Origin: Burkholderiaceae bacterium
GTDB lineage: Bacteria; Pseudomonadota; Gammaproteobacteria; Burkholderiales; Burkholderiaceae_A
Length of the DNA: 64,000 bases
Assembly (NCBI GenBank): GCA_018401615.1
Contig: JAGYKN010000003.1
Span: 1 to 64,000 of the forward strand
Direction of reading: 5' to 3'
Made by a program: the position numbers and the translations under genes
Shown here: piece by piece, positions 54,369 through 60,701 of the stretch
Layout: each line of letters opens with the position of its first letter
Position numbering within the stretch: position 1 is the first letter of the stretch
The notes under the pieces: model-generated
Databases searched by the model: none
Seen by the model: the letters and a program-made list of their open reading frames with translations, nothing else
Told to the model about the DNA's origin: nothing

Positions 54369-55418
54369 CTAGCGACCGAGGGTGGCAGCCAAGAGGGGGG
54401 ACTGCGCAATGCTGATCCCAGTTGCCGAGAGCCCAATCATTGGGGTGGGCGGCCCGAAAGCCAACCGGCCAGACAACAAAAGACATTCCCGACGAAAATC
54501 GACGGAGCCGCATCCTTGGGCCACCCGCAGGGCCTTTGCAATCGCAGGCCCTGCCACCGGAACGATGAGCGGAACCCCAACACTCACACGAATCTTTAGA
54601 CTCGCTGCATCGATGTAATGCACCTGGGATCGACGTCCAATTGCAAGACCATCATCATTGGCAACGGTGCCGCTTGAAGGCACGATTGTGTCGGGCTGAA
54701 CCCAGGCAGGCGGACGAATGACGCCAGTCCCAGCATGGGCCCAATCCTCGAATGTGGCCGCTGTGGGAGACACGATGGACCATGTGATCTGCCCCTGTGC
54801 CTTGGCCATTGCGTAGCGGCCTGCTGCACCTGCAACAGTGAGCAGCGCCTCTCGCTCAGCAGCCGGCTTTAGATCGAACCAGATGGGTGCCAGGCCCCTG
54901 GCCAATCCACGATCAATGGCCAGCGCTCGCCCACCCTCGAGCGCACCTTGCCGGGCCGCCTCTGATGCCGCGTATTGAACAATGAGGGAGGCTAGACCAA
55001 CCAACATGAGTTGTGTCAGGCCAAGTGCCAGCATCAGCATCAAGGGCAGCATCAGAAGCCCTTCAATCATCGAAAAGCCCTCTGGTGGCTTGCGGCAGCC
55101 CTGCCCGAGCCGCACCTCAACGACCTGGGCAGCATCTGGTTCCCAGTAGAGTCCCAATGGAGATGATGACCCCTCGCGAATGAGGTTTCCCTCGTGGTCA
55201 AAAAATCCAAAACGAAACGCGCCCGTTGGCATCCAGCGGTGAATCGCCTGACACCCAGGCAGGACCAGGGCCGTCGTGTCACGACAACGCATCAACCCCC
55301 AGAAGCGATCCCAGGCGTGTCGGGCCACAACAATGGGGACGTCGCCCACCTGGTCTGACGCCTGTCGTCTTATCCAATCGACCATGGAGGGCGTGACCCC
55401 CGCGTTGATCGACATCAT
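54369..55418 (-). CDS. DUF192-like domain fused to a TadE-like pseudopilin
   Basis: A 349-residue protein. Residues about 28-104 look like DUF192: VARHAWDRFWGLMRC, then RWMPTGAFRFGFFDHEGN and VVEVRLG. Then comes a prepilin cleavage site G114|FSMIE with Glu at +5, a hydrophobic helix (LLMLPLMLMLALGLTQLMLVG) and a TadE-type periplasmic domain to the end. ATG at 55418 overlaps the tadC stop (ATGA). A GTG at 55115 would instead give a plain pseudopilin with a 13-residue leader. The whole upstream region looks coding, which supports a real fusion. TadE proteins are minor pilus subunits. Confidence 0.8.
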   Translation of the reverse strand: MMSINAGVTPSMVDWIRRQASDQVGDVPIVVARHAWDRFWGLMRCRDTTALVLPGCQAIHRWMPTGAFRFGFFDHEGNLIREGSSSPLGLYWEPDAAQVVEVRLGQGCRKPPEGFSMIEGLLMLPLMLMLALGLTQLMLVGLASLIVQYAASEAARQGALEGGRALAIDRGLARGLAPIWFDLKPAAEREALLTVAGAAGRYAMAKAQGQITWSIVSPTAATFEDWAHAGTGVIRPPAWVQPDTIVPSSGTVANDDGLAIGRRSQVHYIDAASLKIRVSVGVPLIVPVAGPAIAKALRVAQGCGSVDFRRECLLLSGRLAFGPPTPMIGLSATGISIAQSPLLAATLGR

Positions 55419-56284
55419 GAGAACTGGTCCAGAAGTCGAAAGACCAGGGGCGCAAAGAGAATAATAAAAGTACACGGGAAGATGCAGATCATCAGCGGCC
55501 CGAGCAGCTTGACCGGGGCCTCCTGGGCGCGCCTCTCCATGCTCAGCTGAAAATAGCGCCTTGCCTGAGACGACTGATCCCGCAGGATCTGGCCCAGACT
55601 CAGTCCGCTCTGCTCTGCAGACAGCACCGATGCTGAAAATTGCTCCACTGCGGTAATTGGCAGTGCCTGTCGAAGCAGGCCAAGCGCCTCCGCACGCCCC
55701 CGATTGTGGCGGACATCCGAGGCCACTCTTTTTAAGACTGACACCCAGGCCTGGCGGCCCCGTCCACTGATTCGGTCAGCTGCAACAGCAAATGCCGTTG
55801 AGAATGATTGGCCCCCCTCCAGGGCCAGTGCCAATCCGTCCAAGAAGACTGGAAAGCCCCTCTCAGCGGCCCGACACTCGGCATCCAGACGGGTCTTGAG
55901 CATGCGACTTGGGTGATAAAAACCAAGCCAAAACGCGATTGGAAGGAGCCACCACAATGACCCGATGCCAACGACCAAGCAGCCCGTTGCCGCGATCAAG
56001 ACAAACCCGAGTCCGCTCAGGAGCCTGTAGGCCAGCCACACCGACTCCTCCATGGGATCACGCCAGCCAGCCACCATCATGTTGATCCGAAGAGCAGGTT
56101 GGTCTACTGCCCACCGAGCAACAACGGGTGCCAGGCGTTTGGCCAGGCCAAGGTGAATCTCCTTGAAGGACCTCTGCCGCTCGAGCTTCCACCATTGCCA
56201 AAGCGCGAGACGATTCAGAGGCAACGCCGCCACGATGAAAAAGACAGACACGCCCACCAAGACGCTTGAGATATCTTGACTCAC
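55415..56284 (-). CDS. tadC: Tad pilus inner-membrane protein TadC
   Basis: GspF-domain platform protein. The 289 residues from GTG 56284 carry a T2SSF domain (GFPVFLDGLALALEGGQSFSTAF and LSAEQSGLSLGQILRDQS) between three or four transmembrane helices. GGAGG is seven bases upstream. It follows tadB by two bases and overlaps the next gene by ATGA. Confidence 0.9.
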   Translation of the reverse strand: MSQDISSVLVGVSVFFIVAALPLNRLALWQWWKLERQRSFKEIHLGLAKRLAPVVARWAVDQPALRINMMVAGWRDPMEESVWLAYRLLSGLGFVLIAATGCLVVGIGSLWWLLPIAFWLGFYHPSRMLKTRLDAECRAAERGFPVFLDGLALALEGGQSFSTAFAVAADRISGRGRQAWVSVLKRVASDVRHNRGRAEALGLLRQALPITAVEQFSASVLSAEQSGLSLGQILRDQSSQARRYFQLSMERRAQEAPVKLLGPLMICIFPCTFIILFAPLVFRLLDQFS

Positions 56285-56286
56285 CG

Positions 56287-56982
56287 CTAGACCTCCACGC
56301 GAACCAACTGCCGTATCCAGAGGGCACCAGAGATTTCGAGCATGCAGACAACCCCCATGACCACCCATCCCTGCCACGTGGTGAGGAAGAAATCGGCAGA
56401 CGTCGGATCAATCAGTATCAGCGAGCCCCCCAGTAGGACTGGGATGGCAAGCATCACCAGGGCCTGAAGCCGACCCTGTGAGGTCAGTGCTCGCATCTTC
56501 TCGGCCAGCACCAGCTCCTGCCTAAGGGCTTCTGCAAAACGCTTGAGCGCCTCGGAGAGACCACCGCCTGATTGCACAGACAGCCGAATACAAAATGCCA
56601 TGTCCATGGCCGGCGCCGACCCGAGGTTCTCTGACCAGCGCTCAAATGCGGTGTCCATGGAGTGCCCGAACTGAGTCAGGCGAAGGATCTCTCTGAATTC
56701 CCGAGACAGAATCGGAGACGAGAAGGCCGCAACCTGAACCAACGCCTGACGCAGCGATGACCCAGCCTGAATCGCACCGGCCAATAACTCGCAGGCCTGA
56801 GGGAGTTCTCGATGAAAGGCATCGTGGGTGTTGCGGCGCCCACCTCGGTAGGTGATCAGCTGTTGCCTGACCCGTTTAGACAGCCTTCCTGCCTGGGCGA
56901 GGAGCGTGCGCGGAGAGGGTAGCGTCGATATCACCAACATCGAGATGGCCACCCCCCAGAGTAGAGCGATGGCCGTGCTCAA
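56287..56982 (-). CDS. tadB: Tad pilus inner-membrane protein TadB
   Basis: The other GspF-domain platform protein. Features: an N-terminal helix ([18 protein letters not shown]), the T2SSF pattern ELPQACELLAGAIQAGSSLRQAL and RLSVQSGGGLSEALKRFAEALR, then two C-terminal helices. I start at TTG 56982, overlapping the tadA stop (TTGA), for 231 aa; ATG at 57036 would overlap tadA by 58 bases. Confidence 0.88.
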   Translation of the reverse strand: MSTAIALLWGVAISMLVISTLPSPRTLLAQAGRLSKRVRQQLITYRGGRRNTHDAFHRELPQACELLAGAIQAGSSLRQALVQVAAFSSPILSREFREILRLTQFGHSMDTAFERWSENLGSAPAMDMAFCIRLSVQSGGGLSEALKRFAEALRQELVLAEKMRALTSQGRLQALVMLAIPVLLGGSLILIDPTSADFFLTTWQGWVVMGVVCMLEISGALWIRQLVRVEV

Positions 56983-58484
56983 TCTGAATCCCCTAACCAG
57001 AGGGCCTCGGTCGACCGGAAGGCTGAACCACTCCATTCCCAGACGGGATGGAGTTGGATCACACCGCTCTCAATTCCAGACACCTCCTCAATTCGAACCA
57101 GCCTTCGCACGCCATCTGAGCAACGCTGCTGGTGAACAATCAATCCAATGGCCGACTGAATCTGCTCGCGTATGACTGGTATGGGAAGGTCAAAACCAGC
57201 CATCAAGACCATCACCTCAAGTCGATACAGCGCGTCTCTTGGCGTGTTGGCGTGGACGGTTGTAAGGGACCCTTCGTGACCCGTGTTCATGGCCTGCAAC
57301 ATGTCGAGTGCCTCTCCCCCTCGACACTCACCCACCACAATCCGGTCTGGCCTCATGCGAAGGGCATTGCGAACGAGATCTCTAATGCTGATCTCGCCAC
57401 TGCCCTCTTGATTCGCCGTCCGGGCCTCTAGGGCTATGAGATTTGATGCAGTCAGCTGAAGCTCGGCTGCATCCTCTACCGTTACGATCCTCTCGGATTC
57501 GGGAATGAGGGAGGCTAGAAACTTTAGTGTTGTTGTCTTACCGGATCCCGTGCCGCCGCAGACCACAATGTTTTTGCGCTGATGGACTGCCCTGCAGAGG
57601 TAGTCGGCCATCTCCTCAGAAAGGGTGCCAGCCAAGACCATCTTCTGCGAGGAGTAGACCCCACTCGTAAAACGTCGAATCGTGAGACACGGCCCCCCGA
57701 TTGCTGGCGGAGATAGGACGGCGTTCACCCTGGAGCCGTCTGGCAGTCGACCATCTGCCATCGGAGATGCCTCATCAATGCGTCGACCAATGGGCAGAAA
57801 GATTCGCTCAATCACACCGCGAAGACTCTGCGGACTGTCAAAGGAGGCGGCAATCTTCTCGCAGCGTCCGAACCGTTCGACAAAGATCTCTGTCGATGAG
57901 TTGACCATGATCTCCGTGACGTCCGTGTCTCGCATGATCGACTCCAGAGGACCGAGCCCGACGAGCTCTGCAACCCAACGGTCGGCCAGAGACTCTGCCT
58001 GCGACGCGGTGAGCCCCTGGAGGACCTCGCCCAACTCCTGCTCGATCAGGGCATAGACCTCCAGCCGAATGCTGCTGTCGTTCAGGCTGCCCCACTCGCG
58101 GGTCTTGGCATCGAGTTGTGCTCGAAGTCTCGATAGGCCAATCGCAAAACGATCAGGCTGAGGCTCCTCCACCGAGGTGGCCAAGGCTGGAGGGACTCCC
58201 TGCCGCACCTTTAGTTGCCAGGTGCCAATGCGTATGTCGTCGGATGCCGACAGCGGGCCGTATTCGGAGACAGCCCGTTGGTTGACCTGGGTGCCTGTGA
58301 GAGACCCCATGTCTCTTAGCATCAGGCCCGACGGACCATCTTCGAGCATCGCATGGAGGCGAGAGATCGACAGTCCGCTCAGCCGTATGTCAGTGTCTTT
58401 GCCACTTCCAAACCGAACTGGCGCCTGTTGAAAGGATGCCGTTCGGAAGTCCGACACACCCTGGCGATAGAGGACCTCAATCAT
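56979..58484 (-). CDS. tadA: Tad pilus ATPase TadA/CpaF with N-terminal FHA domain
   Basis: Hexameric motor ATPase for Flp pilus assembly, 501 residues. Residues about 20-93 form a forkhead-associated domain ([35 protein letters not shown]), a phosphothreonine-binding module. The CpaF part follows: Walker [10 protein letters not shown] at 310-318, [21 protein letters not shown], and [16 protein letters not shown] at 58484 has GGAGAGG six bases upstream and is preferred to ATG 58526. The fusion suggests regulation by phosphorylation; no kinase gene is in the window. Confidence 0.93.
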
Positions 58485-59859
58485 CTGCAGCCTCTCCAGA
58501 TGCACGATTGACCTCCGCCTGGCCATGAATGCGCCTGCGTGTCTCGTCGAGCTTGCCCATTGCCTCTCCGATCACCTTCTGATGGAAGGCATCCTGAGGC
58601 GAGATGAGCCTCGGTGTGATCATGACCACCATCTCACTGCGACGATCTCTAAAGTCCTTGGACCGAAACAAGGCTCCAAGAATTGGGATGTTTCCAAGGC
58701 CTGCCAATTTATCGATGGACTTGCTCCCCTCCTCGGATAAGAGACCGGACATCACCAGTGTCTCTCCCTGTTTGAGGTTGACCTGGGTCTCTGTCATGCG
58801 AGAGAGGAACCCCGGCAGGTCGCCGACCCGGATGGCTGGGTCGACCGTGCTGAGCTCTGTCAGGACATTTGCACTGATGACGCCCTGCTCGTTGACTCGG
58901 GGAGCAATCTCAAACCGGATGCCATAGGGCTTGAATTGGACCGATCCAGATCCCAGTGAAGACGTCACCGGCAGGGGTATCTCACCACCCGCAAGGAACT
59001 TGGCGGTTCCCCCACTGCGCGTCGATAACATTGGCTCAGCCAATACAACCGCATCTCCCTCTTGCTCCATGAGATTGATGACCGACAGCAGCGTCGATTG
59101 AAGCCCCATATAGACCGCAAACGGTGAGACTTTTGCAGCCGAGGCAGCCGAGTCGAGACCCGGAAAGTTTGGGGAAATCGATGGTGTGCCGCCGTTGAGT
59201 GCGCCATCTGATGTGGACCTGAAATGTCCGTTGGTCTTCATGTCACCAACGATCCCGACCATCGGGCCCGCCATGCTCTGCTGCCATTGGATACCGATTT
59301 TCTCCATGGCGTTTTTCTTGATTTCTAGGAATCGAACCTCCATCGCAATCATCTGCTCTGTGCCATCGGCACGGGCAAGATTGAGCAGTTTTGGATGTCG
59401 TTCAGCAAGCATTTTCAGTCGGTCTTGTTGCTCCGCGGACTTTGGTGTGCCAGTCACAACGACTTGGTCTCCGATGGCGTTTAGGGAGAGCCCATCATCT
59501 GCGCCAAGGGTCCTGCGGATGTCCTCGGTGACCCGGGAGACTTCGCCAGAGCGGACACGAACCAGGACTCGCCTTGCGGAGAATGAGTCTCCCCAGAGCA
59601 GCAGACTTGTCTCACCATCGCGCTTGCCGGCCAGGAGCAGCCCGCCACCTTTGAGCGGCTTGACGCCCAAGACGGACCCATCACCAACCACAACTCGGCG
59701 AAGGCCGTCGATGGCGATGTGCGTTGTCTGTCCGGATTGCACACTGATGCTCTCAGGAATCTCGGCCAGAAGTGATGGGCTGACCGCCGAGATGCACAGG
59801 CCCAGGAGAAATCCCAACCCCCGAAAGAGCCAGGGCCGATAGAGGTCGGTCGCTCTCAT
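58477..59859 (-). CDS. Tad pilus outer-membrane secretin RcpA/CpaC
   Basis: A 460-residue secretin with signal peptide (LLGLCISAVSPSLLA). N-terminal pilus-associated domain with GQTTHIAIDGLRRVVVGDG, a BON-like region, then the secretin domain ending MSGLLSEEGSKSIDKLAG, IPILGALFRSKDF and MVVMITPRLI. It forms the outer-membrane channel. It overlaps cpaB by 4 bases (ATGA) and tadA by 8. Confidence 0.92.
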   Translation of the reverse strand: MRATDLYRPWLFRGLGFLLGLCISAVSPSLLAEIPESISVQSGQTTHIAIDGLRRVVVGDGSVLGVKPLKGGGLLLAGKRDGETSLLLWGDSFSARRVLVRVRSGEVSRVTEDIRRTLGADDGLSLNAIGDQVVVTGTPKSAEQQDRLKMLAERHPKLLNLARADGTEQMIAMEVRFLEIKKNAMEKIGIQWQQSMAGPMVGIVGDMKTNGHFRSTSDGALNGGTPSISPNFPGLDSAASAAKVSPFAVYMGLQSTLLSVINLMEQEGDAVVLAEPMLSTRSGGTAKFLAGGEIPLPVTSSLGSGSVQFKPYGIRFEIAPRVNEQGVISANVLTELSTVDPAIRVGDLPGFLSRMTETQVNLKQGETLVMSGLLSEEGSKSIDKLAGLGNIPILGALFRSKDFRDRRSEMVVMITPRLISPQDAFHQKVIGEAMGKLDETRRRIHGQAEVNRASGEAADD

Positions 59860-60701
59860 GACGCGCCTCCTGGCTGATGAATCAGCACCTCAATTGGAGA
59901 TGAGACCCTGTTTTTTAGCGGCCGTGTCCGAGTGGGCTGATCCAGACTCCCCCGCAAGGCCACCAGGAGGCGAGATGCGGATTGCGCCTCCATGATGCTC
60001 GCCACAACCGGTGCGGGCACCAAAAGCGAGAGCCCCCCTGCGGAGTGGGCCTGCGAGTTCTCGGAGATCTCAGTGCGCCCCCCAACTGCCACGACCTTTA
60101 TTGCCGAGGCAATCAGCCGCCCACTTGTTGCGGGTGCATCGGTGGCAAGCACCTCGATTCCAGAGGAGTCTGCTGGGCGCAGGCCCGTCTGAGCGCCAAT
60201 CTGCCAGAGATCGATCAGCTGCCCCGGTCGAATAAGGCCATGCCCTCCACCAGCGTCTGCGGGAAGGCCAATGACTCGGTACCCAGAGGGGATCTCCCCG
60301 AGCGGAGAAACCGTCGTGCTTGCCGCCCGCAGATCCTCTCGCCAGATCGGTGAGCCTGGCAGGAGCGCCCTGGTCACGCGTTGACCCTCGATGTCCGAGA
60401 CCTCCTCAGGGCGAATGGGCGTGCCCGTGAACCAGGCTGCTGGGACCTCCCTCATGGCCAGGCGAGAGACTCGCAGGGGTTCGCCAGGTTGATGTGCCTC
60501 TCCAGCGACCACCACCGGCACAAGGCCCTCCTCGATGCGAACCTCGCTCCTGACCTCCTCACGGATCGACTCTCGATCGTCGTGCATGAGCCATCCCGCC
60601 GCAAGACCGGCGCAGAGCCCTGGGACTAGAAACCATCGTCGACCACCGAGCCAGACAGCTGCCTGGCCGCGCCACTTTTTTAAAGACTCGAGAACCATCA
60701 T
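59856..60701 (-). CDS. cpaB: Flp pilus assembly protein CpaB/RcpC
   Basis: A 281-residue protein with an N-terminal transmembrane helix (FLVPGLCAGLAAGWLM) and an SAF-like domain (VPVVVAGEAHQPGEPLRVSRLAMREVP) typical of CpaB. Known role: assembly or gating partner of the secretin. Two ATG codons in tandem (60701, 60698) can serve as start. The upstream small pilin gene ends three bases before. Confidence 0.9.
   Translation of the reverse strand: MMVLESLKKWRGQAAVWLGGRRWFLVPGLCAGLAAGWLMHDDRESIREEVRSEVRIEEGLVPVVVAGEAHQPGEPLRVSRLAMREVPAAWFTGTPIRPEEVSDIEGQRVTRALLPGSPIWREDLRAASTTVSPLGEIPSGYRVIGLPADAGGGHGLIRPGQLIDLWQIGAQTGLRPADSSGIEVLATDAPATSGRLIASAIKVVAVGGRTEISENSQAHSAGGLSLLVPAPVVASIMEAQSASRLLVALRGSLDQPTRTRPLKNRVSSPIEVLIHQPGGAS

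Follow-up and report, generated by a model that had tools for sequence, protein, structure and literature searches.

The window, the whole 64,000-nucleotide stretch of DNA that was analyzed, carries a tad operon that spans 63817 to 54369 and closes with a gene in which a DUF192-type part and a TadE pseudopilin share a single reading frame. Upstream on the same (-) strand lie genes for an RcpC/CpaB-like protein (59856..60701; PF08666 above its cut-off, PF16976 under its cut-off), an RcpA/CpaC-like secretin (58477..59859; PF00263), a TadA-like ATPase with an N-terminal FHA domain (56979..58526; PF00437 and PF00498), a TadB-like platform protein (56287..57036; T2SSF, PF00482), and a TadC-like platform protein (55415..56377; T2SSF, PF00482). 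The phosphothreonine-binding FHA domain on the TadA-like ATPase (PF00498, E 7.8e-12) suggests phospho-regulation of the Tad motor. The start codon of the final gene overlaps the tadC stop codon in an ATGA (caTGAtg, 55415..55418 (-)), an overlap of a type shared with G001, G005, and G008, and translational coupling with tadC is likely.

The final gene is one unbroken frame of 349 amino acids (54369..55418 (-), stop codon counted), as the sequence-only reading had described. A tad-type DUF192 domain occupies residues 28-104 (55107..55337 (-)), supported by profile comparison, an alignment of seven fusions, and an AF2 model. Residues 105-114 (GQGCRKPPEG, 55077..55106 (-)) form a predicted coil that serves as linker or leader end, and residues 115-349 (54372..55076 (-)) correspond to the mature TadE pseudopilin. 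In the AF2 model, an 11-residue coil separates the last DUF192 strand from the TadE helix, which begins at residue 115 and is predicted to extend to 160.

The TadE assignment is upheld by a PF07811 match at residues 114-156 that scores 22.9 bits, exactly the Pfam cut-off, and by the setting of this part behind TadA, TadB, TadC, secretin, and RcpC-like genes. The prepilin-peptidase site reported from the sequence is likewise present at 55062..55079 (-): in G114-F115-S-M-I-E119, Gly stands at -1 and Glu at +5 relative to a cut between G114 and F115, and a hydrophobic stretch follows. Neither G(-1) nor E(+5) varies among the 11 TadE proteins of the family or the seven fusions, and each of the five family fusions has basic residues ahead of the site, as ordinary leaders do. 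The stretch ahead of the site is not a short hydrophilic leader when counted from the upstream ATG, which places 114 residues there; counted from an in-frame GTG at 55115, it is 13 residues long.

The DUF192 resemblance proposed for the N-terminal part holds through a chain of profiles, but not as a direct Pfam match. Residues 1-109 have no match to DUF192 (PF02643) in Pfam even at E 10, an NCBIfam search of the N-domain returns no match, and a PDB sequence search with this domain alone yields chance matches. The fused domains of G001 and G019 give E 0.019 and E 0.0035 against PF02643, both under the cut-off. With hhalign, however, a profile of 19 tad-type DUF192 domains is matched at 98.3% (E 2e-14) by the four N-domains that are fused in the window's genus, and itself matches canonical DUF192 at 99.5% (E 8e-23); a sequence search with the tad-type alignment also retrieves 3m7a and 3pjy, two DUF192 structures that have been solved. 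L016, a DUF192-type neighbor gene between tadC and tadE, matches PF02643 at 4.5e-19, and its domain, used as a query, picks up the fused G001 domain (E 8.9e-6). Set directly against canonical DUF192, the profile of the four fused domains scores weakly (22%), so the assignment rests on the chain from fused to tad-type to canonical profiles, by which residues 28-104 are, at the level of sequence, a diverged Tad-locus DUF192 domain. The AF2 model of the N-domain has a pLDDT of about 84; in a Foldseek search of the PDB, no match reaches E<=0.001, and the 50 matches listed include no DUF192 entry.

Six residues of the DUF192 part (R38, G41, C56, H60, G77, and E101) are invariant across all seven fusions, a pattern that would indicate that this part retains a function. 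The last DUF192 element, a C-terminal strand with the pattern Gi..Gd.l, is absent in the window. G008 and G004, whose copies are separate genes, lack the same element, so its loss is not caused by fusion. Tad-type DUF192 domains bear a C-x3-H-x(2,3)-M motif where the canonical family has its WMKNT region, and this motif is possibly a ligand or metal site. Tad-type copies have no N-terminal signal peptide. The other DUF192 gene of the genome (L001 1336-1869 (+)) is canonical, and its N-terminus is signal-peptide-like.

The fusion recurs among relatives. The family sample comprises 26 genomes, all apparently MAGs or drafts, and 11 of them contain a TadE gene. Five of these 11 (G000, G001, G005, G009, and G019) carry the fusion; in the other six, DUF192 and tadE are separate genes, adjacent or overlapping in another frame, between tadC and tadE. 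A separate DUF192-type gene in that slot occurs across the order. In the five family fusions, which come from diverged relatives, the DUF192-to-TadE linkers run 36-120 nt past the conserved Glu, all are stop-free, and all are 0 mod 3 in length. With genomes taken as independent, the chance probability of such in-frame, stop-free junctions is about 0.008 for five of 11 in the family and 0.010 for four of six in the genus, although shared ancestry makes the former a rough figure. In the tree, G019 groups with separate-gene genomes with full support while relations within the genus are poorly resolved, and this placement implies at least two fusion origins or several splits inside the family.

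Such recurrence bears directly on whether the join is an assembly error or the product of a degenerating locus. The draft character of the family genomes would allow for this, as would the missing C-terminal strand of the window's DUF192 part and the decayed tadE elsewhere in the family, but the architecture is common to independent assemblies of seven species with invariant motif residues, and the rest of the tad operon in the window is intact. Artefact or decay is thus largely refuted by recurrence and has very little probability left. The decayed copy is a tadE remnant with a 58-residue open frame in the near-complete family genome G011 (G011:C1:534673-534816), suggesting loss of the Tad system there. 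The named records nearest to the family are Burkholderiales MAGs such as UBA954; these organisms are presumed to live in freshwater.

Beyond the family, 144 distinct DUF192-type domains, tad-type and canonical, were collected from searches of the order, class, and phylum and scanned for fusions. The scan yields two more DUF192-TadE fusions in other families, L113 (G526) and L206 (G395). The homologue survey that the sequence-only reading had recommended thus finds the same architecture in G001, G005, G009, and G019 within the family and in G395 and G526 outside it. Each of the latter two is one ORF with DUF192 at 1.8e-17 (G526) and 2.2e-18 (G395) and TadE at 1.6e-11 and 2.3e-10, respectively, all above Pfam cut-offs. 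The window protein has no relative on the plasmids searched. The tad DUF192 frame of another family continues stop-free into a different downstream protein: L091 (G501), L103 (G530), L099 (G396), L100 (G471), and L109 (G587). The downstream partner in L091 contains TPR and is apparently secreted. The internal start is a strong ATG in L099 and L100 and is weak in L091 and L103.

A single frame could also consist of two in-frame overlapping genes, in which the DUF192 stop codon has been lost, TadE begins at an internal codon, and the long product is minor or a by-product. The candidate codon in the window is the GTG of V102 (55113..55115 (-)), which would give TadE an ordinary, textbook leader of 13 residues, MRLGQGCRKPPEG; TadE leaders in separate-gene relatives are 5-18 residues long. 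SD-like sequence precedes the internal starts in G005, G001, and G019, with weak enrichment over the set (combined P 0.04), and the stop-free neighbors L099 and L100, with their strong internal ATGs, show by precedent that a lost stop can at times be tolerated where no functional fusion results. Initiation at this GTG, which the sequence-only reading had named as one of two findings that would refute it, is nevertheless poorly matched by the homologues: the codon is not conserved among relatives and SD pairing ahead of it does not exceed background (39th percentile; P 0.42), yet it is usable as a start in the window. Codon-position GC over the linker carries no signal for either reading. The internal starts of G009 offer leaders of 3 or 6 residues only, and the upstream ATG would still yield a fusion product even if an internal start were used. 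Overlapping genes are accordingly an unlikely account of the window, with perhaps one chance in four or slightly better.

The fusions outside the family weigh further against internal initiation. In G526, whose contig end falls within tadE, there is no in-frame ATG, GTG, or TTG for 68 codons ahead of the cleavage Gly; the nearest start codon is at 69 codons, inside the DUF192 core. In its sister genome G901, the genes are separate and the TadE leader has 7 residues (MHKPQRG). The TadE ATG of G901 is ATA in G526 and one further upstream base differs; if that base is assumed to be an assembly error, the G526 frame still has no start codon before a stop. G395 offers a single in-frame start codon over 60 codons, a TTG that lacks SD pairing. 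Judged by these codons, any TadE that G526 and G395 make would come essentially from the fusion. Both are independent fusions. With no start codon for TadE in G526 and a poor TTG alone in G395, they suit experiments better than the window does. For the same reason, they strengthen the reading of the window's frame as a single precursor.

A precursor of this kind would require a peptidase that acts behind a folded domain. A single Peptidase_A24 protein was detected in the genome, with both Asp-containing motifs intact, GxGD included; with the assembly at 86% completeness, another prepilin peptidase may have been missed. The detected gene (L074 1399-2085 (-), 228 aa) adjoins coaE, and Pfam matched the peptidase domain alone. 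Prepilin leaders lie in the cytoplasm and the active site of prepilin peptidase is on that face of the membrane (PMC10191384, PMC4471445), making a cytoplasmic domain ahead of the site topologically acceptable. Known prepilin leaders are 6-26 residues long, and those of type IVb are about 15-30 (PMC4471445); the 114 residues ahead of the site in the window lie well beyond this range, a point against the precursor. The predicted N-in topology and the single frame would also suit a fusion that stays uncleaved, in which TadE tethers DUF192 permanently to the inner membrane and DUF192 serves the assembly platform as a module on the cytoplasmic side. This arrangement is improbable: G(-1) and E(+5) would be needless without cleavage yet are invariant in all fusions, assembly of type IV pilins requires prepilin cleavage (PMC4471445), and relatives make the two proteins separately.

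The preferred reading, with a probability of roughly 0.6, is that the last gene of the tad operon yields a DUF192-TadE precursor that is cut between G114 and F115 into the same two products that separate genes supply. Translation would proceed as one chain from the ATG that overlaps the tadC stop codon, the tad-type DUF192 domain (1-104) would adopt its fold on the cytoplasmic side, and from residue 115 on the TadE helix would insert as an N-in signal anchor. The prepilin peptidase of the genome would then cleave after G114, sending mature TadE to the pilus apparatus and leaving the DUF192 protein, with a short tail, free in the cytoplasm. Release of the DUF192 domain in this manner is plausible. 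The fusion more likely serves to supply both of the normal Tad products from a single frame, since six of 11 relatives encode both proteins in separate genes. A bolder version is more tentative and falls somewhat short of even odds: prepilin peptidase would act as a polyprotein processor that cuts off a folded domain of 114-142 residues, DUF192 would reach the membrane in a one-to-one ratio with TadE and may there be a co-translational chaperone or docking pro-domain until it is released, and the fusion would have arisen independently at least three times.

Gene fusion is a classical sign of two proteins acting together. The present fusion ties DUF192, a domain of unknown function that recurs in Tad loci, to the TadE step. 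If the precursor is cleaved, it would represent natural prepilin peptidase action behind a folded domain, far beyond known leader lengths, and both the substrate limits of the peptidase and the role of DUF192 would become directly testable. A literature search returns no DUF192-TadE fusion, and the one paper naming both is a genome survey. The parts and the operon slot are known; the covalent arrangement is new and recurs in three families.

Comparison with known systems places the fusion closest to loci where tadC, DUF192, and tadE are separate genes, as on a Moraxella bovis plasmid (NZ_CP087831.1) and in G901, G008, and L016. These loci encode the same two proteins in the same operon slot, and the DUF192 stop and the tadE start overlap, or come close to doing so, in G901 and G008. 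Unlike the single frame of the window, they have two genes, two start codons, and TadE leaders of 5-18 residues. With TadE pseudopilins (PF07811, TadV-type peptidase), the window protein shares the cleavage site with Glu at +5 (G/xxxxE), the hydrophobic helix, and the C-terminal periplasmic part, but a 114-residue domain stands where they have a short leader. Canonical DUF192/COG1430 (PF02643; 3m7a, 3pjy) matches in its core profile through the tad-type subfamily, whereas the window's version has no signal peptide, carries C-x3-H instead of WMKNT, has lost the last strand, and is part of a fusion instead of a free protein. Long-leader type IVb prepilins offer the nearest parallel for processing, as their leader is cytoplasmic and removed by prepilin peptidase, which is also the model for the window; their reported leaders are about 6-30 residues (PMC4471445), whereas the window protein is predicted to present a folded domain in that position.
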